From positions 1 through 59,475 of the forward strand of contig JAFGSB010000073.1 in NCBI GenBank assembly GCA_016934825.1: 59,475 bases of DNA. Direction: 5' to 3'. The translations under genes and the position numbers were made by a program. Each line of letters opens with the position of its first letter. Positions within the stretch are counted from its first letter, which is position 1. This DNA comes from Candidatus Zhuqueibacterota bacterium (GTDB taxonomy: Bacteria > Zhuqueibacterota > Zhuqueibacteria > Residuimicrobiales > Krinioviventaceae). Positions 198 through 30,601 of this stretch are shown here, one piece after another. Under the pieces are notes generated by a model. It did not search any database. It saw nothing but the letters and a program-made list of their open reading frames with translations, and was not told where the DNA came from.

Positions 198-749
198 TCA
201 AATATAATCCTTATACAACTGCGGGCTGGGGGCGGGAATAACGACCATATTGACAAGCAACCCTTTGCCGGAAACCACCGCCGCCCCGGCGTCGACCGCG
301 GCGCGAACGCTGCCCACGCTGCCGGTGAGGGTAACGAACGCCTTGCCGCCCAGCGCCATCGCCAGCCGGATTTCCAGCAACTGAACGTTCGCCGCTTTAA
401 CGGCCGCGTCGGCCGCTTCCACTAACGCGGCCACGGAAAAGGACTCGATGATACCCAGTGACTCCAGCTTGTCCACCTTGTTCGCCCCGGCAATGGCCGG
501 GAATACCTGCGGATCGACATTCGACAACAGCATCGAATCGATAACCGCACCCTCCCATTTCTTCAAACCGGCTTCCACGCTGGAGCGGACCGCGGCTATG
601 TCCCCGCCGACAATAACCATATATTTACCGGAACAGATGGTCCTGGACAGCACCAGTTCCACACTCGAAGTTTTGATCATGGTATCGGTAACGTCCATTC
701 CGGCGGCTATACTGTTGAGTTCGATCAGCCCGATTGCATTCTTAAACAT
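198..749 (-). CDS. pduT: PduT-like trimeric BMC shell protein (two tandem BMC domains)
   Basis: Shell protein of a bacterial microcompartment. The 183 residues hold two tandem BMC folds (about 1-90 and 95-183), each opening with the shell-protein signature (AIGLIEL and LGIIESFSVA). Cys39 in SRTICSGK sits where PduT carries the pore cysteine that binds a [4Fe-4S] cluster on the trimer axis. Length equals that of known PduT proteins. Its ATG directly follows the stop codon of the PduS-like gene, with AAGGAACA as ribosome site, so the two are co-transcribed and probably translationally coupled. Known PduT/PduS pairs pass electrons across the shell. That role here is inferred. The rest of the locus is not in the window, so the enclosed pathway is unknown. 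Confidence 0.9.
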   Translation of the reverse strand: MFKNAIGLIELNSIAAGMDVTDTMIKTSSVELVLSRTICSGKYMVIVGGDIAAVRSSVEAGLKKWEGAVIDSMLLSNVDPQVFPAIAGANKVDKLESLGIIESFSVAALVEAADAAVKAANVQLLEIRLAMALGGKAFVTLTGSVGSVRAAVDAGAAVVSGKGLLVNMVVIPAPSPQLYKDYI

Positions 750-2072
750 TTATTTGTTCCTTTCAATCATAATCATCGTGTCCGTTACATCCGCTATACG
801 CCCGTCAATGCTGGCATGTACATTGGCGCCTAACTTGTCCGCCGGGATCCGGCCGACAAGCTGTCCTTTTTTGACGACATCACCTTTATTGACCACTGCT
901 TCGGCGGGCGCGCCAACGTTCTGGTTCAGCGGGATAAATACTTTGTCCGGTTCGGGACGGGTTTCCGAGTACCCGGCATGAGCTTCGTATTTTGTTACAC
1001 CAAGCCGGTTCATCAACTGTTTCAGCGGCAGTCGCCTGTGGTCGTGCATGGGGTGGGTTTTTATCTCTTTGTTGCCTTCCCACTTGCCCCCGCCGGATTC
1101 ACGCATATTTTGTATGCCTTTTACACAGGTCTCGCGCGGATACAGCGCTTCGGGACAGGCATACAGCGTACAAATCCCGCACTGACAGCATAACAGAGCA
1201 TATTGATTCCAAATCTGGGGACCCGTAACGTTGAATCCAAGACTACGCATCACCAGGTGCGGCTGAATATCATAACCCAGCAAATAGCGTGGACACAATT
1301 CGGTGCAGTAACTGCACTGATCGCATGCGGAATGACCAATGCGGTCCATTTCTTTTTGCGTTTTACTGTACCGGGTGATCAGGTTGTGGTCGGCCGGCAG
1401 GACGATAATCCCGCCGGTGGTTTTGGTGACCGGCTGGTTGATATCGGTGACGAGTTTGCCCATCATCAGACCGCTTTCCATCATGCCGAATTCGGAGACA
1501 GCCGGTCCTCCTGCCAGCTCCAGCACGTCTTTGACCGTCATACCGACCGGCACCCGGGTGGATACCGGGTTTTTAACCAGACCGGTTATAGTTAAAAAGG
1601 TTTTCGTGACCGGTTCGTTATTTGCGGCTTTATATATATTATAAACAGTCTCGACATTATTGACTACGCAGCCCACGTCAAGCGGCAATCCCTGCGGCGG
1701 AATGTGCCTGCCGGTAATGCCGTATACTAATTCGTATTCGTCACCAACCGGATAAAAATCTCCGAATTCATGAATGGAAATAGCGGGATCGTTTATGGCC
1801 GCCCGTATTGCTTTTAGGGCATCCCGGTTTTTAGATTTGATGCCGATAACCGCTTTTTTCGCTCCAACCGCTTTATAAGCTAATTTAATGCCCTCGATAA
1901 TCTCCCCGGCAAAATGAGTCATCAATTCGCGGTCCTTGTGCATCAACGGTTCGCATTCTGCACCGTTGACCAAAAATTGTTCTACTTTAGCCGTCAGCTT
2001 GACGTGTGTGGGAAAACCTGCGCCGCCCGCGCCGATTACTCCTGCCTGTTTTACCTGTTTCGCAAGATTCAT
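750..2072 (-). CDS. pduS: PduS-like RnfC-family flavo-iron-sulfur protein of a microcompartment
   Basis: A 440-residue RnfC/NqrF-type electron-transfer protein. A glycine-rich nucleotide/flavin loop (GAGGAGFPTH, about 14-23) opens the Complex1_51K-like domain. An SLBB-like region follows, then two ferredoxin-type cysteine clusters (C250/C253/C256/C260 and C295 or C296/C298/C301/C306), then a C-terminal barrel-sandwich hybrid (about 380-440). Family members such as PduS are cobalamin reductases or NADH-linked electron carriers inside microcompartments. The neighbour PduT-like gene supports that reading over a membrane Rnf complex, since no other rnf genes are present. It is the most upstream gene of this short run, and DNA above it is non-coding, so it may start a transcript continuing past the window's left edge. 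Confidence 0.88.
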   Translation of the reverse strand: MNLAKQVKQAGVIGAGGAGFPTHVKLTAKVEQFLVNGAECEPLMHKDRELMTHFAGEIIEGIKLAYKAVGAKKAVIGIKSKNRDALKAIRAAINDPAISIHEFGDFYPVGDEYELVYGITGRHIPPQGLPLDVGCVVNNVETVYNIYKAANNEPVTKTFLTITGLVKNPVSTRVPVGMTVKDVLELAGGPAVSEFGMMESGLMMGKLVTDINQPVTKTTGGIIVLPADHNLITRYSKTQKEMDRIGHSACDQCSYCTELCPRYLLGYDIQPHLVMRSLGFNVTGPQIWNQYALLCCQCGICTLYACPEALYPRETCVKGIQNMRESGGGKWEGNKEIKTHPMHDHRRLPLKQLMNRLGVTKYEAHAGYSETRPEPDKVFIPLNQNVGAPAEAVVNKGDVVKKGQLVGRIPADKLGANVHASIDGRIADVTDTMIMIERNK

Positions 2073-2272: not shown

Positions 2273-3253
2273 TTATTGCAGGAATGTCATTTTCTTTATT
2301 TCAGAAAATGAACCGGCCTGTAATTTATAAAAGTAAACACCTGAAGGTACAATTGACCCTGCTGCATCACGACCATCCCACTGAAATCCGTATTCACCTG
2401 CTGTGACACTTTTGTTGATCAAAGTTTTTACAAGCCGTCCTGTGACATCAAAAATCGACAGATTTACCGTTTCTTTTTCAGGTATTGAAAACCGTATATA
2501 AGTTGTCGGGTTAAAAGGATTCGGATAGTTTTGGTGCAGAACAAAATGTTCAACTCCTGCCGAAGATTTTTCGTTAATTCCGGACCCTCCTTCCGGCACC
2601 AGGCTAAACTCGTCAACGGCGAAGTCGTATAACAGCGCCGCCCCGTCGGTCCACACGCCCGTCTTTACGCCAAAATAAATTTCCACCTGTTCCCCTTCCT
2701 GACCTTCGGGGGTATATAAGTTCGAGCCAGATCCGGTACAGCCGTCATCCTGAAAAGTTCCGTCTATCGCAGATCCGCATTCGGAAGCCCAGCCGTTCCA
2801 TTTGACCCCGACGAGCAAATCGGTACTTGTCGTTCCCGGCGGTGTCCAGTCCACAGTCGGTACAGGAGCTTCCGGACTCATATACACCTCACACCAGTAA
2901 TTAATGGTTTCGCCCATTGTAAGATCCTTGACCGCGCCGGTAAATTCATAGGTGGTTCCGGCGGTAAGGGTCAGTTTTTGCCAGACCAGAATATTGGTAT
3001 AAGTGGAATAACCGGTGAGATACAGGTATGGACCATCACCAAAAGCCGGACCGTAATCATCAACTACGCCGAAAAATGCTTCCGAAGGATCTGTACTGTC
3101 AAGATTGTAAACTGTCCATCCTGTCGTATCGGCAAAACCGCCGTTGGTTATCATTTCCTGACCGAAACCCTGAGAGGAGAAACAACAAACAAAGACAAAA
3201 AATAAAACGGTCAGCAAAGCTTTAGTTTGCAGGGAGTAACTTTTCTTTTCCAT
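2273..3253 (-). CDS. Secreted protein with carbohydrate-binding-like domain and C-terminal FlgD-like sorting domain
   Basis: The ATG at 3253 is chosen because AAAGGAGATAAG lies just before it. A longer reading frame adds six residues without a ribosome site. Residues 1-31 form a signal peptide ending near FSSQGFGQ. The middle (about 32-225) resembles a galactose-binding/CBM4_9-like beta-sandwich (opening with NGGFADTTGWTVYN and closing with FAVDEFSLVPE). The last 85 residues are a FlgD-like domain with YPNPFNPTT, WDGRDAAG and SGVYFYKL, the form used as type IX secretion sorting signal in FCB bacteria. It is monocistronic, with its own terminator. Substrate and partner are unknown. Confidence 0.8.
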   Translation of the reverse strand: MEKKSYSLQTKALLTVLFFVFVCCFSSQGFGQEMITNGGFADTTGWTVYNLDSTDPSEAFFGVVDDYGPAFGDGPYLYLTGYSTYTNILVWQKLTLTAGTTYEFTGAVKDLTMGETINYWCEVYMSPEAPVPTVDWTPPGTTSTDLLVGVKWNGWASECGSAIDGTFQDDGCTGSGSNLYTPEGQEGEQVEIYFGVKTGVWTDGAALLYDFAVDEFSLVPEGGSGINEKSSAGVEHFVLHQNYPNPFNPTTYIRFSIPEKETVNLSIFDVTGRLVKTLINKSVTAGEYGFQWDGRDAAGSIVPSGVYFYKLQAGSFSEIKKMTFLQ

Positions 3254-3567
3254 CTTATCTCCTTTCAACAAAATAATAAATAGTATTAGTCTCGTCCGGT
3301 AATCACATACCCGGGCTGATGTGAATTACATGATTAATTTATTTTAGAAATTATAAATTTTCAAAAATACAAGAATCAAATGAATACTAAACAACTTTTC
3401 AAAAATATAGTAAAAGATCCTTTCTGTTTTTTTTTGATACTCATGTTATTAAAATACTATTTAAAAATCAAATTATTTTGTAAAAAAATTTGTCTTACGG
3501 CATGTTAGGCAAAACGTACATCTTTTCAAATTAGTTCAAATTAATTTGGTAAATTTTGATTACACCC

Positions 3568-6897: not shown

Positions 6898-7350
6898 ATT
6901 TCGTTCCCTCATAAATAGAAGTGAATGATTTTATTGAATTAGAATTCCTGGAGGATAAATAAAATATAATTCATTTAGCTTTAGCAAGCAACATAATTTT
7001 CTATTTCCTTTGCCGCGTGCATTAAGACATAAAATAATATAGAAACATTTATTTTTAACAATAAAAATGAGTCCAAATTAATAAAACTTATTTCTTTTAT
7101 TCAACAGCCGGATTCATTTTTAATATCACTTGATTATTCTGAAATTTATTATTATAATTTTTAACTATTAGAAATAAACACCTGTTGATCGATTTCATGG
7201 GATGAAAATATTTATTATTTTAATAGTTCCTATTTATATTTTATCGATTAAAATATTTATACAACAATATCATAATGGCCATTGTTTAATCGCAGATGTT
7301 TTCGGATAGTAAATACTTGCTATGGTAATATAATTTTATTATTTTTCAGT
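6898..7350. other. AT-rich intergenic region between divergent genes
   Basis: No gene seen. It is extremely AT-rich and holds an 11-bp direct repeat AAAATATTTAT at 7205-7215 and 7250-7260, 45 bases apart and upstream of the restriction-modification operon. Promoters for both flanking genes must lie here, but I could not single out a convincing one. Confidence 0.5.
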
Positions 7351-8316
7351 ATGAATAAATTAAAATTGACATCTGATTTTGATTCTACGGCGGATTTTAT
7401 CCTCTATGAAGGGGATATTAAAGAACTATTAAAAAATGTTCCTGATAATTTTACCAAGCTTGTCGTCACGTCCCCTCCATATAATATCGGAAAAACCTAT
7501 GAAAAAAAGCTGCACATCAAGGATTATCTTGATGAACAAAAAAAGGTGATTCAGGAATGTGTCCGGGTATGTCACCCCGAAGGCAGTATCTGCTGGCAGG
7601 TAGGGAATTATGTGGATAATGGTGAAATAATACCTTTGGATGTATTGCTATATCCAATTTTTTCTTCTTTGAAACTGCACATGAGAAATAGAATTGTCTG
7701 GCATTTTGGACATGGTCTGCACGCCTCTAAAAGATTTTCTGGCAGGTATGAGGTAATTCTCTGGTTTACAAAGAGCAAAAATTATACATTCAACCTGGAT
7801 GAGGTTCGTGTTCCTCAAAAATACCCGAACAAAAAACATTTCAAAGGTCCGCAAAAAGGGCAATTTTCTGGTAATCCGTTAGGGAAAAATCCAAGCGATG
7901 TCTGGGAAATCCCAAACGTTAAATCAAATCATATCGAAAAAACTGTCCATCCGTGCCAATTCCCCATAGAATTGATCGAACGCCTGGTACTCTCTTTAAC
8001 AAATAAAGGGGACTGGGTGCTTGATCCGTTTATGGGGGTAGGTTCAACGGCTATTGCCGCATTACTGCATCGGAGACGTGTTATGGGCGCGGAAATCGTT
8101 CCAGAATATAACAAAATTACCAGGGAAAGACTTGAACTGGCTGAAAGCGGACATTTAAAAATACGTCCCATGGAACGATCTGTGTATGATCCCAATTCAC
8201 CGAACAAGAACATTCCCCCTAAAACCATTAAAATTTATTCATTCTCCGAACAACTTGATTTTTTGGAAAAATCGCAATTGAACTTTTTTGAGAATCCTAA
8301 CAAGGGTGGGATCTAA
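7351..8316 (+). CDS. Type II DNA methyltransferase, beta class (probably N4-cytosine)
   Basis: Modification half of a two-gene restriction system. The catalytic motif IV TSPPYN (residues 40-45) comes first. The AdoMet-binding motif DPFMGVGST (about 225-233) comes late, which is the beta-class order. TSPPY is typical of N4-cytosine enzymes such as M.BamHI-type proteins, and the adjacent nuclease is BglII-like, whose partner makes N4-methylcytosine, so I infer m4C. The ATG at 7351 is taken. An in-frame TTG at 7282 would add 23 residues with no similarity to the family. The TAA overlaps the nuclease ATG by one base, giving translational coupling. The surrounding DNA is AT-rich, consistent with a mobile acquisition. 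Confidence 0.85.
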   Translation: MNKLKLTSDFDSTADFILYEGDIKELLKNVPDNFTKLVVTSPPYNIGKTYEKKLHIKDYLDEQKKVIQECVRVCHPEGSICWQVGNYVDNGEIIPLDVLLYPIFSSLKLHMRNRIVWHFGHGLHASKRFSGRYEVILWFTKSKNYTFNLDEVRVPQKYPNKKHFKGPQKGQFSGNPLGKNPSDVWEIPNVKSNHIEKTVHPCQFPIELIERLVLSLTNKGDWVLDPFMGVGSTAIAALLHRRRVMGAEIVPEYNKITRERLELAESGHLKIRPMERSVYDPNSPNKNIPPKTIKIYSFSEQLDFLEKSQLNFFENPNKGGI

Positions 8317-8861
8317 TGAAAATTATTTACGAATATTCACATTTAGGCGGTACAGAAATATTAAAAGTTCGTTATCCAGAAATTGATAAAGAAATAACCG
8401 ATATTATATCAAAAATCAATGCACAACGTTTGAAAATTAGCAAAGAAAAAACAATGCCCGGGAAAGAGCTGTTTTCTCCCAAAGATATGAATTTACAATT
8501 TAAAAAATATTTTAATAAAGCCGGGTATAAAGAATTAAGAGATACCTATAAAATCACCATCCCAAATTATAAAAAAGAAATACCCGGTGTTTTTAAACAA
8601 ATTGATTTTGTAAAAGAAAATGTGCTGGTCGAAGTACAATTCGGCAAGTACGCGTTTATGTTTTACGACATGGCAAAGTTTCAATATTTTTTCAATGAAA
8701 ACAAAGCCGATCTGGGAGTGGAAATTGTTCCCTGTCACGCCCTGCACAAACAAATGTCTACCGGGGTATCGTATGGCGAACAACTGGTATACGATATAGA
8801 ACGATTAAAAAGACATTTCCCGGCCGTTCCCGTAAAAATTATTTTAATAGACATCGATTAA
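8316..8861 (+). CDS. BglII/BstYI-family type II restriction endonuclease
   Basis: The 181 residues match the Endonuc-BglII family. Asp97, Glu106 and Gln108 in DFVKENVLVEVQ have exactly the spacing of the BglII catalytic residues Asp84, Glu93 and Gln95. The conserved downstream blocks FGKYAFMFYDM and GVSYGEQLVYDIERL follow. It is a little shorter than BglII (223) and BstYI (about 200). Such enzymes cut AGATCT or RGATCY. Which applies here cannot be read from the sequence. Its start overlaps the methyltransferase stop, so modification is made first and expression is coupled. No controller (C) protein gene is present. Confidence 0.85.
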   Translation: MKIIYEYSHLGGTEILKVRYPEIDKEITDIISKINAQRLKISKEKTMPGKELFSPKDMNLQFKKYFNKAGYKELRDTYKITIPNYKKEIPGVFKQIDFVKENVLVEVQFGKYAFMFYDMAKFQYFFNENKADLGVEIVPCHALHKQMSTGVSYGEQLVYDIERLKRHFPAVPVKIILIDID

Positions 8862-11295: not shown

Positions 11296-13332
11296 ATGAA
11301 AAAGATCCTGCCGATTATTCTGTTTATGAACCTGTTTGCCGTTTCCGTTGTCACCGCGAAAAGAGCGCAGACTGTCGATGACATGTGGGCAATGAAACGG
11401 ATCCAGGACATCGCGCTGTCGCCGGACGAACAAAATATCGCCTTTTCCGTAACCGAATATAATATGGAAAACAATACCGAGCAAACGGATATCTGGCTCT
11501 GTACTGCCGCCGGGGACAATATCAGAAGATTAACTAAAAGTCCTTTTAACGATATATCTCCGCAATGGCTCCCGGATGGATCGGCCATACTGTTCCTTTC
11601 CGACCGAAACGGCGCAATGCAGATTTACACGCTTTACCTGTCCGGCGGCGAAGCCGGGCAGATCACCCATTTACCGGTAGATATTGAAAGTTTTATAATT
11701 TCACCCAATGGCAATAAATTCGCTTTTACCGCGACCATCTTTGCGGAAACAAAAAGTCTGCAGGAAAGCGCCATGCTGGATCAGGAAAAAGAGACATCGA
11801 AAGTTAAGGCAAAAATCATCGATCATCTTTTTTTTCGCTACTGGGACCACTGGACCGACGGCAAAAGAACACATATTTTTATCTGTAATGCCGACGGTTC
11901 TAACGTCATCGATTTAACTCCCGGAGAATACGACGCGCCGCCCCTGGACCTCGGCAGCATCCAGGATTTTGTCTTCTCCCCGGACGGCCGGGAACTGGCC
12001 TTTGTAAGCAATCTTGATCCAATGCCGGCAGTTACTCCAAATAACGATGTGTTTGTCGTACCGGTTTCAGGCGGCAAGGCAAATAAAATCAGCGGTGAAA
12101 ACACGGCCGTCGACAATTGCCCGCGATACTCTCCGGACGGAAAATTGATTGTTTATAAAGCTATGAAAAGGCCGGGATTTGAAAGCGACCAGTATGAAAT
12201 ACTTCTTTACAACCGGGAAACAGGATCGCGAATTTCACTCACGGAATCCTTCGACCGAATCCCGGACGAAATAATCTGGTCCCCGGATTCCAAATTAATA
12301 TATTTCAACGCCGAAGACCTGGGCAGAAAAAAAATATATTCGCTGGACATCAAAACCGGCGGCATCAAAACAATTGTTACGGAACATTTTAACACCGGGA
12401 TCAATATCGGCACATCAGACAAAGTTTTGTATTTCAAACAGCAGGCCGTGAATATGCCGGACGAAATTTTTAAGGTCAATTCCAAAAACCAAATTGAACA
12501 GATAACTTTTCTCAACAAACCGCTGCTTGACCAATTGGTAATGAACCCGGTTGAAGACTATTGGTTCGACAGCTTTGACGGCAAAAAAGCTCATTGTTTG
12601 TTATTAAAACCGCCATTTTTTGATCCGGATAAAAAGTATCCGTTGATTTTTCTTATCCATGGCGGACCGCAGGGTATGTGGAGCGATGATTACCATTACC
12701 GCTGGAACGCGTCCATGTTCGCCGCGCCGGGGTATATCGTGGCAATGGTCAACTTTCGCGGATCGCACGGTTACGGGCAGGACTGGTGCGACCTGGTGAG
12801 CAAAGACTGGGGCGGCGGACCATATAAAGATTTGATGACCGGGCTCGACTTTATTTTGGAAAAATTTTCCTTTATAGATAAAAATAAAATCGCGGCCGCC
12901 GGCGCCAGTTACGGCGGTTATATGGTCAACTGGATCGCCACACATAATGACAGATTCAGGGCGTTAGTCAGCCATTCCGGGCCTTTCGATCTGAGAAGCA
13001 AATACGGCGCGACCGAAGAACTCTGGTTCCCTGAATGGGAATTGGGCGGCACGCCATACGAAAATCCGGAACTGTACGAAAAATGGTCCCCCTCGTTTTA
13101 TGTTGAAAACATGAAAAAATATAAAACGCCGACTCTTGTCATACACGGGCAATATGATTACAGGGTTGCGGTAACTCAATCTTTTCAAATGTTCACCGCT
13201 TTGCAGAGAATGGGTGTACCCTCCCGTTTGCTCTATTTCCCGGATGAAAGCCATTTTATTACCAAACCGCAAAACGCAAAATTATGGTGGAGCGAAATTT
13301 TTGCCTGGATAAACAAATGGATCAATTCCTGA
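11296..13332 (+). CDS. S9 family prolyl oligopeptidase / acylaminoacyl-peptidase-like, exported
   Basis: A two-domain serine peptidase of 678 residues. A signal peptide (about 1-21) is followed by a TolB/WD40-like beta-propeller (about 30-400, with repeats such as LSPDEQNIAF, FSPDGRELAF and YSPDGKLIVY) and a C-terminal alpha/beta-hydrolase. The catalytic triad is complete: Ser538 in GASYGGYM, Asp621 in HGQYDYRV and His653 in ESHFI. An oxyanion-type HGGPQG lies ahead of it. It probably trims peptides in the periplasm. The closest family is dipeptidyl/acylaminoacyl peptidase S9C. A small lipoprotein gene follows 35 bases later and probably shares the transcript. Confidence 0.92.
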   Translation: MKKILPIILFMNLFAVSVVTAKRAQTVDDMWAMKRIQDIALSPDEQNIAFSVTEYNMENNTEQTDIWLCTAAGDNIRRLTKSPFNDISPQWLPDGSAILFLSDRNGAMQIYTLYLSGGEAGQITHLPVDIESFIISPNGNKFAFTATIFAETKSLQESAMLDQEKETSKVKAKIIDHLFFRYWDHWTDGKRTHIFICNADGSNVIDLTPGEYDAPPLDLGSIQDFVFSPDGRELAFVSNLDPMPAVTPNNDVFVVPVSGGKANKISGENTAVDNCPRYSPDGKLIVYKAMKRPGFESDQYEILLYNRETGSRISLTESFDRIPDEIIWSPDSKLIYFNAEDLGRKKIYSLDIKTGGIKTIVTEHFNTGINIGTSDKVLYFKQQAVNMPDEIFKVNSKNQIEQITFLNKPLLDQLVMNPVEDYWFDSFDGKKAHCLLLKPPFFDPDKKYPLIFLIHGGPQGMWSDDYHYRWNASMFAAPGYIVAMVNFRGSHGYGQDWCDLVSKDWGGGPYKDLMTGLDFILEKFSFIDKNKIAAAGASYGGYMVNWIATHNDRFRALVSHSGPFDLRSKYGATEELWFPEWELGGTPYENPELYEKWSPSFYVENMKKYKTPTLVIHGQYDYRVAVTQSFQMFTALQRMGVPSRLLYFPDESHFITKPQNAKLWWSEIFAWINKWINS

Positions 13333-13367: not shown

Positions 13368-13805
13368 ATGAAATTTCTATTGACCTTAACCAAAATATTA
13401 TCTATCATTATTTTAGTGGCTTGTTCCGGGTTGATAAAATGTTCAAATCCGACTGAAGAAGAGAAGAAAAAGACCGTTATTCGAACACTGGTTGATGATT
13501 ATCTCGAAGATACGGGCCGGTATGTATTTTACTGGGATGGCAAGGACAAGAACGGTAAATATATCAAAGCCGGAAATTACATATACGCGTTACAGACAAA
13601 AACTTTTGAGGACTTTGACTATTTTTCCGCGGTGGACGGAGGTAAGGCCGGCGAAAACAACGAGGAACATTATGAGCCCGGTTTCTGGAATGATTTTGAA
13701 CTTGAAAAAGCTTACCCGGATCCGTTCAAGATAATCTCCGGCGTGAATATACCTTTTCTTATCAGCGAACCGGCCAGAGTGAAAATTATTATCTACCAGG
13801 ATTAA
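13368..13805 (+). CDS. Small lipoprotein with apparently circularly permuted FlgD-like Ig domain
   Basis: The N-terminus is a lipoprotein signal with lipobox LVAC (Cys19). The mature part carries two halves of a FlgD-like domain in reversed order. First comes the half normally C-terminal (TVIRTLVDD, YWDGKDKNGKYIKAGNYIYAL, about 36-75), then a linker, then the half normally N-terminal (AYPDPF, VNIPFLISEPARVKIIIYQD, about 115-145), where it stops. Joined end to start the halves make one ordinary domain, so this looks like a circular permutation. A relic of two tandem domains trimmed at both ends is the alternative. It follows the S9 peptidase gene closely. Its function is unknown. Confidence 0.7.
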   Translation: MKFLLTLTKILSIIILVACSGLIKCSNPTEEEKKKTVIRTLVDDYLEDTGRYVFYWDGKDKNGKYIKAGNYIYALQTKTFEDFDYFSAVDGGKAGENNEEHYEPGFWNDFELEKAYPDPFKIISGVNIPFLISEPARVKIIIYQD

Positions 13806-19921: not shown

Positions 19922-20575
19922 TTATTTCAACATGAATTTTACCGGTATACTGATCCACACCTTTACCGGTTTATCCCGTTGTAAGGCAGGCTGCCACTTT
20001 ACACTTTTTACTGCAGCGACGGCCGCTTCATCGCAACCGGTATTCCCCAAAGATTTCAACACCTTGACCTCAACAACCTGCCCGCTCTCGTCAATACAAA
20101 CCCATAAACGAACAGTTCCTTCGACCTGGGCCTTGCGGGCCGTTTTGGGATATTTTAATACTTTCTGAATAGCCAGGTAGCCTCCAACCGGGACAGGAGG
20201 TTGTTCATACGCGATAAATATATACTCTGTTTTTGTTTCGACAGTTTCTTTGAATTCCGGAGGTTGCGGAATATTCCCCAAATCAATTCTCGTATCATCA
20301 ATAGTTTCATTCGGAGGAAAATCAGGGTCTTCACTCTCTACCGGAATGGCCGGTCGGGAAGGCCTGGGTAAATCTTTTTGCTGTATAATCGGCTGGAGAT
20401 CATGCGTTTCAATAATAACTTTAACAGGTGGGGTTTTATTTACGGGAGTATCGTAACTTTTCCATCCCTGGAAAATAAAAATAACAATAACTAATGTAAA
20501 AATCAGCGCCCGGTCGGTGTTTTTTTTGTAATCCGTTTTAAAGCGAATCTTTGGTTTATTTGTTTGTGTCTTCAT
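19922..20575 (-). CDS. tonB: TonB-family energy transducer (second copy)
   Basis: A 217-residue TonB protein. A cytoplasmic basic start is followed by a single membrane anchor (about 23-38, ending FQGWKSY), a proline-rich periplasmic linker (about 60-115) and the C-terminal TonB domain (about 130-217) with YPKTARKAQVEGTVRLW and SVKWQPALQRDKPVK. It is a close paralogue of the upstream TonB at 20803-21453, especially in the last 80 residues. GAAAGGAGTGACGTC lies before the ATG. A strong terminator between the two copies implies that this one is made by readthrough or from its own promoter. It links the inner-membrane proton motor to outer-membrane receptors. Confidence 0.9.
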   Translation of the reverse strand: MKTQTNKPKIRFKTDYKKNTDRALIFTLVIVIFIFQGWKSYDTPVNKTPPVKVIIETHDLQPIIQQKDLPRPSRPAIPVESEDPDFPPNETIDDTRIDLGNIPQPPEFKETVETKTEYIFIAYEQPPVPVGGYLAIQKVLKYPKTARKAQVEGTVRLWVCIDESGQVVEVKVLKSLGNTGCDEAAVAAVKSVKWQPALQRDKPVKVWISIPVKFMLK

Positions 20576-20611
20576 GACGTCACTCCTTTCATTTAAGCAA
20601 TGAACAACAAA

Positions 20612-20644
20612 AAAGAGCCGGATGCTATAAACATCCGGCTCTTT
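20612..20644 (-). terminator. Intrinsic terminator between the two tonB genes
   Basis: Thirteen-base perfect stem AAAGAGCCGGATG/CATCCGGCTCTTT with a seven-base loop and TTTTTTGTTGTT after it on the minus strand. It closes the exbB-exbD-exbD-tonB transcript about 160 bases after the first tonB stop. Confidence 0.85.
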
Positions 20645-20802
20645 AATTATTTAGAGTGAACTATTTTCGTTCTTACAGACACACAATCCTCAGAGGTTAA
20701 GAGTTAATAATAATTTATTATAAAACTCTAAATATCGTTTAAATCGAAATCAATACGTCCTCTGCTGGTGCCAATAAACCGATTCAGCTTTATTTGAAAC
20801 GG

Positions 20803-21453
20803 TTATTTTAATTTGAATACAACAGGAATACCAATCCACACTTTGACCGGTTTATCGCGTTGTTTAGCGGGTTTCCATTTAACAGATTTAATAGCAGCGA
20901 CAGCAGCCTCATCACATCCGTTATTACCTAACGACTTGAGAATGTTGGTTCTGATGACGCTACCTTTTTCATCGATCAAACAGTTTACAACAACCCGGCC
21001 TTCAACACCCGCTTTACGAGCAATTTCAGGATAAACCAGATTTCGCTGAATCGCTGCAAAGCCTCCGATTGGTTGCGGAGCCTCATCGTAAGCAACAAAT
21101 ATAGTTGCGGATTCATCAATATCTTCCTCCGGCGGTGGCGGTGGCGGCGGCAATTCATCTAAATTAATTTCCGTCGATTCGATTGTTTCATCTTCATCAA
21201 TATCTTCATTTTCACTTTCAATTGGTATTGCCGGGCGTGAAGGTGCGGGTGGTCTTTTTGTCTGCTCGGTTTGCGGAATTTCCTCCACCTCTATCTTGAT
21301 ATTGACTTTTTCCTGTTTTTTTGCCTCTTGTTCAAATTTTTTCCAACCCTGGAATATCACTATTAACAGGGCCAGTGCTATTACCAGCCCAAGCTCTATA
21401 TTCTTTTTATATTTGAGCTTCAGGCTGTATTTTGGATTTTTCCTAAGAATCAT
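20803..21453 (-). CDS. tonB: TonB-family energy transducer (first copy)
   Basis: The 216 residues follow the standard plan: basic N-terminus, one membrane anchor (about 22-36, ending FQGWKKF), a Pro/Glu-rich spacer with a run of seven prolines near residue 105, and a TonB C-terminal domain with YPEIARKAGVEGRVVV and SVKWKPAKQRDKPVK. The ATG follows GAGGTGATTTCAT, and the gap from the second exbD is only 11 bases. No TonB-dependent receptor gene is present in the window, so the cargo is unknown. Confidence 0.92.
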   Translation of the reverse strand: MILRKNPKYSLKLKYKKNIELGLVIALALLIVIFQGWKKFEQEAKKQEKVNIKIEVEEIPQTEQTKRPPAPSRPAIPIESENEDIDEDETIESTEINLDELPPPPPPPEEDIDESATIFVAYDEAPQPIGGFAAIQRNLVYPEIARKAGVEGRVVVNCLIDEKGSVIRTNILKSLGNNGCDEAAVAAIKSVKWKPAKQRDKPVKVWIGIPVVFKLK

Positions 21454-27222: not shown

Positions 27223-28122
27223 TTAAAAAAACGCCGTCATCGAAAACCTCTGTGAATTTCCCAGATCATTATCAAAAGGTATATAAGCATAGTCTATATT
27301 CAAAAATCCGAAATTCAATCCAAATCCTGCGGCAACTGATCTTTCGTCATAACCGGTTTGATACCCGGCGCGCACAGCTATTTTTTGATAGGGATAATAT
27401 TCGATCCCTAAATTGACATGATCGCTGTTTTCAAGAATTTTCACATAATCCGCCGCAAATAATAATTTATCCCCCATAAAAAAATCCGGGATGGTGTACG
27501 CGGTTCCGAACCTCATAATTTTGGGCAGTACGATGCTTTCCTGAACCATTTCCGACATTGAGCCGATATTTTGAATTGCCGCGGCGACAAACAGTCCTGA
27601 GCGTAACAGCCGATACCGGACGCCAAAATCAAACGCGTAACCGCTTGCCGATTCGACATAAATTTTTTCATTCAGGTATTTGACCTTTGCGCCGACGGAC
27701 AAATTTTCGCCAATTTTTCGGGCATAATTTAACGACATGGAAAAATCATGGGATGAAAATGTTCCCAACGGTTCTTCGGTTGCGGTAATTCGCCGTTCAA
27801 AATCATTGACATTGTTCAGCATTAATCCGATCCCGAGCGTTCCAATCGTTGTCGGGAAAACCACACCGGCGGCGTTATTTGAAATTCCCTGGATCCATTT
27901 GTTATGCGTAAAATGGGCCTGTCGCTGTTTAATCCATGCCGGTCCCGCCGGATTCCAGAATATTCCGGAAGCATCGTCAGCGGACGCTACAAATGCCTCT
28001 CCCATGGACGCCGCCCTTGCGCTCACGCCGATTTTTAAAATTGCCAGCCCGGTTTCTCCGCCGGCAAAAACCGAAACCGGCAATATCATTAACATCCATA
28101 TAAAAATAAATTTTTTGAACAT
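27223..28122 (-). CDS. PorV/PorQ-like outer-membrane beta-barrel protein (distal copy)
   Basis: A signal peptide (about 1-20) precedes a mature start AGGETGLAILKIGVSARAASMG, the family opening. The rest is a run of amphipathic strands ending in FSMTAFF, the aromatic terminus used for outer-membrane assembly. Members include PorV, which receives sorting-domain cargo from the type IX secretion channel. 299 residues. It is last in a four-gene run that contains a protein with a sorting domain (29147-30601) and lies 27 bases after the second PorV-like gene. Which protein it serves is inference. Confidence 0.85.
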   Translation of the reverse strand: MFKKFIFIWMLMILPVSVFAGGETGLAILKIGVSARAASMGEAFVASADDASGIFWNPAGPAWIKQRQAHFTHNKWIQGISNNAAGVVFPTTIGTLGIGLMLNNVNDFERRITATEEPLGTFSSHDFSMSLNYARKIGENLSVGAKVKYLNEKIYVESASGYAFDFGVRYRLLRSGLFVAAAIQNIGSMSEMVQESIVLPKIMRFGTAYTIPDFFMGDKLLFAADYVKILENSDHVNLGIEYYPYQKIAVRAGYQTGYDERSVAAGFGLNFGFLNIDYAYIPFDNDLGNSQRFSMTAFF

Positions 28123-28149
28123 ATCTGTATTCCATTCAGTAAAAATGAA

Positions 28150-29133
28150 TTAAATATTAAATGCCCAGGAAAAAATATGATCGGAGCCGGGCGCGTCCTG
28201 AGATAAAACAAAAGCATAATTGATCATATTTGATTTATTTAATAGATTGAATTTGATTCCCAATCCAAAGGTTGGCGAATTATCATCCAGACCAAAACGC
28301 AACGCCCCGATTTTCGCGTTCGACAATTCCATTCCATAATGATAACGCGGATTTTGCTTGTCGCTGTCTTCGATCTCGGCCGTGAGCAGCAGCCATTGCT
28401 GCGGTATACGGTATGCCATCGCCGCCCTGGTTACTTTGGGGAATTTATTAACGGTGCTGGTGCCTCTCTCATAAACAGTGTCCGTGTTCCAGGAATATTT
28501 TGACATATTGTCCCGCAGAACCAAACCCAGCGTAAGATTGTTTACGGGCATAAAATATGCGCCGACATCTATCCCGAACCCGGTGGAGGTTAAAGCCGAG
28601 TTGTCTTTTTGAATATCGGGCATCTGGTTATACAGTACCTTACCGGTAATACCAATTGAGAACCTTTCAAAAGGACTTAACGCGAATGAAAGATAAAAAG
28701 CATGCTCCGAATTTGAAAAATCCATGGTATGATTACCGCTTCCGTCGGTTCCGTAAATTTTATCCACACCGGCATGAACCCAGCCCAACGCCAGACCGGC
28801 TTTTAAAAGATTTCCTCCCGCTTCCGGGTCCGCCTTTGGATTCAGGGGCATGGCAAAACCGATAAAATCAAAATTCCGATCCAGGGTTAAAAACGAATAA
28901 GATGCGGCCAACTGCCTTTCCTTCAGGTGCGGCAGCAGCGCCGGATTATAAAAACCGGCAACGGCGCCTTCCGGGATAGCGCTGTAGGCGTCGCCCAAAG
29001 CTTTGGCCCGAGCCCCCAGCCCCATTCTTAAAAAAGCGCCCGCATAACCGCCGTCACCCGGCCGGGCAAACGCCGTTAAAACAAATATAAAACTCATAAA
29101 AAGGGTTAAAATATATTTTTTCATGCTGTTCAT
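28150..29133 (-). CDS. PorV/PorQ-like outer-membrane beta-barrel protein (proximal copy)
   Basis: 327 residues with a signal peptide, the family start GAFLRMGLGARAKALGDAY, FYNPALLPHL (the conserved NPA turn) and alternating strands to a C-terminal FSWAFNI. It is only distantly similar to the copy after it, so the two are old paralogues with possibly different clients. The start at 29133 is retained. An ATG three codons downstream has better spacing from the AGGA and may be the real one. The cargo-like gene stops 13 bases upstream. Confidence 0.85.
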   Translation of the reverse strand: MNSMKKYILTLFMSFIFVLTAFARPGDGGYAGAFLRMGLGARAKALGDAYSAIPEGAVAGFYNPALLPHLKERQLAASYSFLTLDRNFDFIGFAMPLNPKADPEAGGNLLKAGLALGWVHAGVDKIYGTDGSGNHTMDFSNSEHAFYLSFALSPFERFSIGITGKVLYNQMPDIQKDNSALTSTGFGIDVGAYFMPVNNLTLGLVLRDNMSKYSWNTDTVYERGTSTVNKFPKVTRAAMAYRIPQQWLLLTAEIEDSDKQNPRYHYGMELSNAKIGALRFGLDDNSPTFGLGIKFNLLNKSNMINYAFVLSQDAPGSDHIFSWAFNI

Positions 29134-29146
29134 ATCCTGTCGTTAA

Positions 29147-30601
29147 TCAATTAACAATCATTATCTTGCCCCAGTAGGTGCCGTCGTTATCGATTTCAAC
29201 ACTGTAAAAATAAACTCCGTTTGCCACCATATCGCCATAATCATTCCGGCCGTTCCAGACTTCATTAAAATCACCGTCGGTGTAACGTATTTTACCGTCT
29301 ACCAGGGTGGTAACCAGGTCCATCGCAAAATCATATATCCTGATCGTCACCCTTGTTGGCAGCGTTGTATTATACTGTATACGGACATAACCGTCATTAT
29401 CCAGAACATTATGCCGCGTCGGGGAAAAAGGATTGGGATAGGCATAAGTCCTGGGCCTTCCGCCCTCGCCGGTTGGCTGAAAAGCGCGCATAACGTCCCA
29501 GGTATAACCGTTATCACTTGTTTTGGCCAGTCCGTCCGAGGTGCCGGCCCAAACAACCCCGTTCTGCGCCATTACCGAATATAATTCCGTGCTGTATACT
29601 TTTTCGCCGGTGACCGTGTCCGTTATCCTGGGGAACCTGCACCACGTTTCTCCGAAATCGGCGGATTTATAGAGACCCTCGTATGTGGCCACATACACAA
29701 TTGATCCGTCGAAACAAAAATTTGCCGGTCTGATACCGTTCACCGAATCTCCAAGCGTAGTAGTCCAGGTTTTACCGCCGTTTTCCGATTTGGATACGGC
29801 GTAAAATTCCGTTTCGCCTTCCGCTTTCCAGGTACTGGCCCAGATGATCTTCCGGTTTTCGGCTTTTTGAAAGGCCAGCGCATTGACAAAGTTGCCGGAA
29901 ATGGGCTGTTCCTGGTTGGTACGACTAAAATTTTCCCAGGTTTTACCGCCGTCAACAGATTTATTTATCCCTTCCGCCGTTCCGACCCAGAGCTCATTAT
30001 CGGCGGTAATCACCGAAAAAGCCCTGTGATTCAATCGTTTTCCGGGATCGAACACAAAAGAGTCCGGCGGAACAACCTCCCAGTTTTCTCCGAAATTTTC
30101 CCCCTTTACCAGACCGCCGCCGAAATTCGCCAGCCAGATGGTGCCATTCAATACCGCAATATCATAAGTTAAATTCTGAACGGTTGGAAAATCAAAAGGG
30201 GGCTGCTTAATATGTTTCCAGGACTGTCCGTTGTCTAAAGAAATACTCAGACCGGTCCCGTTAGCCAGGTAATCGTCCGAAACCTGCGTCAGTGTGTCGT
30301 TCGCCGTCGCCACAATCACGGTGTCGCCGCTCACCCACATGGCGGAAATGCTGCCCCTGCCGATTCCGTGCGCCGTGCCAAGAGATTGTATGGTTTTGCC
30401 GTTATTCTTTGTAAAACTTAAACCGTGCCCGGTCCCTAACCAGACCGTACGGGTACCGGCGAAAATATCGGTAATGCCGTTTCCGGCAAGCCCTTCGCCC
30501 GGGCTGACATTTAGTTGATAAGATTGTACAACAGGATCAGCATTCAAGGAATAACTTATACACATCAAAACAGTTAAAATTAAAACATTTATATTTTGCA
30601 T
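29147..30601 (-). CDS. Secreted beta-propeller (BNR/sortilin-like) protein with C-terminal sorting domain
   Basis: The 484 residues begin with a signal peptide (about 1-21). About 30-390 forms a propeller of roughly seven repeats with SxDxGxxW-type Asp boxes (SLDNGQSWKH, SVDGGKTWEN, SENGGKTWTT, SADFGETW, SDNGYTW). The last 95 residues are a FlgD-like domain (YPNPFSP, VWNGRNDYGD, NGVYFYSVEI) ending in KIMIVN, the sorting signal of type IX-secreted proteins. It lies in a four-gene run with an Ig-like lipoprotein upstream and two PorV-like genes downstream, so it is a candidate cargo for them. Ligand unknown. Confidence 0.85.
   Translation of the reverse strand: MQNINVLILTVLMCISYSLNADPVVQSYQLNVSPGEGLAGNGITDIFAGTRTVWLGTGHGLSFTKNNGKTIQSLGTAHGIGRGSISAMWVSGDTVIVATANDTLTQVSDDYLANGTGLSISLDNGQSWKHIKQPPFDFPTVQNLTYDIAVLNGTIWLANFGGGLVKGENFGENWEVVPPDSFVFDPGKRLNHRAFSVITADNELWVGTAEGINKSVDGGKTWENFSRTNQEQPISGNFVNALAFQKAENRKIIWASTWKAEGETEFYAVSKSENGGKTWTTTLGDSVNGIRPANFCFDGSIVYVATYEGLYKSADFGETWCRFPRITDTVTGEKVYSTELYSVMAQNGVVWAGTSDGLAKTSDNGYTWDVMRAFQPTGEGGRPRTYAYPNPFSPTRHNVLDNDGYVRIQYNTTLPTRVTIRIYDFAMDLVTTLVDGKIRYTDGDFNEVWNGRNDYGDMVANGVYFYSVEIDNDGTYWGKIMIVN

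Follow-up and report, generated by a model that had tools for sequence, protein, structure and literature searches.

A circularly permuted FlgD-like sorting domain forms a conserved putative lipoprotein, usually encoded beside an S9 peptidase, in candidate division KSB1

The window analysed here is the whole stretch of 59,475 nucleotides of contig JAFGSB010000073.1 from a Candidatus Zhuqueibacterota bacterium. The open reading frame at 13368-13805 on the forward strand is closed by stops on both sides (147 codons from stop to stop) and encodes the protein MKFLLTLTKILSIIILVACSGLIKCSNPTEEEKKKTVIRTLVDDYLEDTGRYVFYWDGKDKNGKYIKAGNYIYALQTKTFEDFDYFSAVDGGKAGENNEEHYEPGFWNDFELEKAYPDPFKIISGVNIPFLISEPARVKIIIYQD. 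The parts of this gene, its upstream neighbour and a second domain used for comparison are listed below (CTD, C-terminal sorting domain; AF2, AlphaFold2).

11296..13332, forward strand: S9 (DPP5-like) peptidase gene, ending 35 bp upstream of the lipoprotein gene and encoding a type I signal peptide; NF053518, matched at 551 bits against an equivalog cut-off of 900 bits
13368..13805, forward strand: permuted lipoprotein gene, 145 aa plus a TAA stop, with 28 orthologues in other genomes
13368..13442, forward strand: signal peptide through the invariant lipobox Cys25 (LIKC), from the alignment of orthologues
13422-13424, forward strand: Cys19 (LVAC), a second, unconserved Cys, from the same alignment
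13443..13472, forward strand: short charged tether SNPTEEEKKK, from the alignment and the low N-terminal pLDDT
13473..13634, forward strand: second half of the CTD/FlgD-like fold, with beta4 (36-46), beta5 (50-56), beta6 (69-76) and beta7 (81-89), from profiles and the AF2 model
13635..13700, forward strand: linker DGGKAGENNEEHYEPGFWNDFE from the old C-terminus to the old N-terminus, from the alignment and the model; the optimum of the rotation scan lies here
13701..13802, forward strand: first half of the fold, with the P-x-P-F motif, beta2 (126-132) and beta3 (136-144), from profiles and the AF2 model
2276..2545, reverse strand: normal-order T9SS type A sorting/FlgD-like domain (comparison), from profiles, AF2 and PDB matches

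Other genes in the window were named by eye only: microcompartment shell protein-like and RnfC/PduS-type protein-like genes at 198-2072 (-), a DNA methyltransferase-like gene followed by a possible restriction enzyme partner at 7282-8861 (+), and two adjoining TonB-like proteins of 217 and 216 aa, likely a duplication, at 19922-21453 (-). A T9SS-like cluster at 27223-30601 (-) encodes two PorV/PorQ-family outer-membrane proteins and a 484-aa propeller protein that has a FlgD-like C-terminal domain and weak similarity to PorZ.

The first-pass annotation had described an intact lipobox at LVAC. A lipid anchor at an invariant Cys is indeed likely, but the conserved residue is C25 and not C19. Cys25 follows a hydrophobic stretch and is invariant in all 29 family members, with a variable residue at -1; in the window's protein it lies in ..LIKC-SNP. 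C19 of LVAC is peculiar to the window's sequence. Judged from the alignment, the likely lipidation site is C25 (LIKC) rather than C19.

A whole-genome search across the phylum (candidate division KSB1) covered 82 genomes and found full-length single-copy orthologues with the same half order in 29 of them, the window's own included. They are about 140-165 residues long, and the matches outside the window's own genome range from E 5e-13 to 7e-57. A 30th match (G053) was left out of the family; it is a normal-order domain. In the window's order, the lipoprotein was found in 21 of 22 genomes. The one genome without it (G012) has its S9 gene 67 bases away from the end of a contig, so that the lipoprotein gene may just be missing from the assembly. 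Alignment of the 29 sequences showed that C25, G50, W56, G58, G69, Y71, P117, P119 and G125 are invariant, and conservation of the linker is confined to the window's order. Non-exhaustive searches of four other phyla (132, 17, 4 and 1 genomes) gave no full-length match and just half matches to normal domains. As far as tested, the permuted lipoprotein is limited to KSB1. A viral or plasmid origin was also considered and rejected; relatives were searched for there and none were found.

T9SS CTDs and FlgD-like domains normally have one fixed strand order. In native order, the N-terminal half of the window's protein matches positions 46-75 of the 79 of Pfam FlgD_ig at 21.8 bits, under the 27-bit cut-off; with the C-terminal half placed first, the match extends over positions 18-75 and rises above the cut-off to 28.2 bits. 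Residues 38-80 and 103-144 match the normal-order domains of the same genome in reversed order. A profile HMM of length 90 was trained on 20 normal domains taken from protein C-termini in this lineage, with members of the permuted family left out. Against this lineage HMM, the native protein scored 35.6 bits and covered positions 38-82 only, whereas the rotated protein scored 58.6 bits and covered positions 3-82. The whole family behaved in the same way: the 29 members scored 15-36 bits in native order, with only the second half covered, and 26-59 bits after rotation, with coverage from 3-8 to 78-89 of 90. The mean gain on rotation was 18.6 bits, compared with 0.9 bits when the moved half was shuffled, and in 29/29 members the gain exceeded all 40 of the member's own shuffles. 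When all rotation points were scanned, the optimum fell inside the linker for every member. The strand order read from the sequence is beta4-7 followed by beta1-3 in all 29 and is the same in the AF2 model, and the core motifs P-x-P-F, W-D-G and G-x-Y of a normal CTD are present after rotation.

These data indicate that the folded part of the lipoprotein is almost certainly a circularly permuted T9SS type A CTD/FlgD-like Ig domain. Neither fragmentation nor chance similarity accounts for it. The first-pass annotation had proposed that the two FlgD-like halves occur in reversed order and that placing the second before the first recreates a normal domain, and both proposals hold. Strand beta7 (EDFDYFSAV), which it left in the linker, belongs to the permuted domain as well. 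The protein that it chose for comparison, at 2273-3253, in fact starts at 3271, with its domain at 2276-2545 on the reverse strand. Apparent native-order matches to other proteins of the window's genome (C60, C62 and C42) proved to be normal-order domains. A stand-alone ORF of 149 residues in this genome (L142, G000:C143:13700-14700), with a likely signal peptide and one normal-order FlgD-like domain, offers a natural comparison.

The mature permuted protein was modelled with AlphaFold2 from 10 close sequences. The best model had a pLDDT of 90.8 and a pTM of 0.81, and the lower-ranked models had a pLDDT of 69-77; the model of the window's normal domain reached 86.6 and 0.77. The normal domain has beta1 at 2-4, beta2 at 15-21, beta3 at 25-33, beta4 at 38-47, beta5 at 50-56, beta6 at 69-77 and beta7 at 80-88. 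All seven strands recur in rotated order in the permuted model, at 12-22, 26-32, 45-52, 57-65, 77-80, 102-108 and 112-120 in mature numbering. The strand at 77-80, a short one inside the linker (101-104 of the precursor), is placed like beta1 and was called so from position alone. As the first-pass annotation had anticipated, the single chain is predicted to close as one domain with both termini in the former beta3-beta4 loop. The sheets of the permuted and normal domains are probably equivalent, judging from sequence and strand order. In such an arrangement, both new termini would lie at the former loop, a linker of about 22 residues would join the old termini, and the lipid would be carried on the new N-terminus through the charged tether of about 10 residues.

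The normal-domain model matched PorU (Z 10.1), FlgD (Z 9.0) and PorZ (Z 8.6) in the PDB. Searching the PDB with the permuted model yielded no match at E <= 0.001, and the best Z among the chains compared was 4.9, with none >= 5. Such an outcome would be expected of aligners that depend on sequential order, and it is not taken as evidence for a new fold. The permuted lipoprotein is a new form of a known fold. After rotation it has seven strands in common with the T9SS type A CTD (TIGR04183/PF18962; the CTDs of P. gingivalis RgpB, PorU and PorZ), which the window's normal domain also resembles in its likeness to PorU and PorZ. It differs from this CTD in strand order, in the loss of the beta3-beta4 loop and the C-terminal signal motifs, and in being a stand-alone lipoprotein instead of the C-terminus of a cargo protein. 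The second half of the fold also matches the Ig-like domain of the flagellar hook cap FlgD (PF13860) by sequence (PDB 3osv, E 2.8e-4, and Pfam FlgD_ig). Unlike FlgD, the lipoprotein is permuted and consists of one domain only; the rest of FlgD is absent and no flagellar genes were seen in the neighbourhood. A search of the literature, mostly without subscription journals, found no paper describing circular permutation of an FlgD or T9SS domain, which is weak evidence of novelty.

The DPP5-like S9 peptidase (NF053518) is a neighbour and not the lipoprotein itself. In 21 of the 29 genomes its gene immediately precedes that of the lipoprotein on the same strand; these genomes include members of families f16, f19 and f22, which lie outside the window's class, and in one of the 21 (G019) the two genes are about 500 bp apart. 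A tree of 54 S9 proteins placed every one of the 21 adjacent copies in one supported group of 29, and put other S9 paralogues of four of the same genomes (G065, G077, G002 and G018) outside it. The adjacency label required 5 changes on this tree, against 17.0 by shuffling. The same group contains copies from three genomes that have no lipoprotein (G067, G068 and G074), with an Smr-like gene, named by eye, downstream of the S9 gene instead. In the distant families that have the lipoprotein, a short cluster 20 gene follows it. S9 proteins with and without a lipoprotein neighbour have ordinary signal peptides alike, and no sorting domain was found in them. An anchor swap, in which S9 gains a lipobox of its own in genomes lacking the lipoprotein, was not seen in the S9 signal peptides. 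The link between S9 and the lipoprotein is old and persistent, yet it is not obligate, because the lipoprotein occurs without an adjoining S9 gene (G010, G014 and G021) and the S9 orthologue occurs without the lipoprotein in other lineages.

On the evidence of this conserved gene order, the permuted lipoprotein could well be a membrane-tethered partner of the S9 peptidase, although we propose this tentatively. Lipidation would place it on a membrane in the periplasm, where it may bind or tether the soluble DPP5-like peptidase, holding or regulating it at the envelope. It is possible, and somewhat short of an even chance in our view, that natural permutation converted a T9SS sorting domain in this way into a partner, anchored by lipid, of a periplasmic peptidase, with the sorting motifs destroyed and the fold kept. 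Alternatively, the protein may be a general structural or adhesion module of the envelope with no special tie to S9, and the conserved gene order may be inherited rather than functional. The genomes in which either gene occurs without the other are consistent with such a module, as is a cell-wall amidase gene that also stays nearby at 13 loci. Against it, adjacency of S9 and the lipoprotein survives in the distant families f16, f19 and f22 despite changed neighbours (the short cluster 20 gene in place of the amidase), and adjacency picks the orthologous S9 copy even beside other S9 paralogues. We regard the general envelope module as a serious but somewhat doubtful alternative.

A third explanation concerns T9SS itself, in which the lipid-anchored domain would be a component or a decoy that binds or mimics sorting signals, as the first-pass annotation had suggested. 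A T9SS context is supported: the window's genome has an SprA-type translocon gene (SprA N-terminal family) and many normal CTDs, the window's normal domain passes TIGR04183 (42.7 against 23 bits), and the folds are alike. In P. gingivalis CTDs, export needs two motifs, one being the beta3-beta4 loop with its Gly (G699 of RgpB), the other the residues at the C-terminus, and a Lys in beta7 is conserved (PMC11285876). The permuted chain is opened at the beta3-beta4 loop, and its old C-terminus is internal, in the linker. The loop Gly is present in 2/29 permuted domains compared with 20/20 normal ones, and a Lys or Arg in beta7 in 2/29 compared with 19/20. A C-terminal tag extension is tolerated in Porphyromonas (PMC11285876), so burying the old C-terminus alone need not abolish the signal. 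Mimicry of the sorting signal is unlikely because both motifs are broken or buried and the conserved Gly and Lys are lost, all together. Moreover, the lipoprotein gene is linked not to T9SS genes but to that of an S9 peptidase without a sorting domain, and most KSB1 genomes, among them many that are just as rich in FlgD-like domains, lack the lipoprotein. Nothing observed speaks for binding of sorting signals. A role as a T9SS component or decoy is thus improbable. With both T9SS-read motifs removed, the permuted domain would be neither exported nor cleaved as T9SS cargo.

Two further explanations concern the chain itself. The halves might pair between two chains as a domain-swapped dimer rather than within one chain; since the single chain closes at high confidence in the model and the linker appears long enough to join the old termini, we consider this quite improbable, and none of the results points to it. 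In all 29 orthologues beta3 is followed within a few residues by the C-terminal end (one more residue in the window's protein), stop codons vary (TAA, TAG and TGA), and the sequence past the stop is without conservation; truncation, a pseudogene and a frameshift were rejected on these grounds. That the gene is what remains, after decay or truncation, of a longer protein containing two normal domains, as the half order alone and a 'YGK' past the stop in the window would fit, is refuted by the signal peptide, the Cys and the stop, whose positions agree across the 29 orthologues, and has practically no chance of being right.

Annotation by sequence misses the permuted domain or half-labels it, with one half matched below the cut-off, and structure search in sequential order likewise overlooks it. 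The permutant would allow a direct test of what makes the fold a signal, because the cut hits one mapped recognition motif and buries the other. A conserved permutant means that rotation of this fold is tolerated by nature and that the fold is reusable outside secretion. If the proposed conversion into a peptidase partner is true, the fold of a secretion tag would have been separated naturally from its signal.
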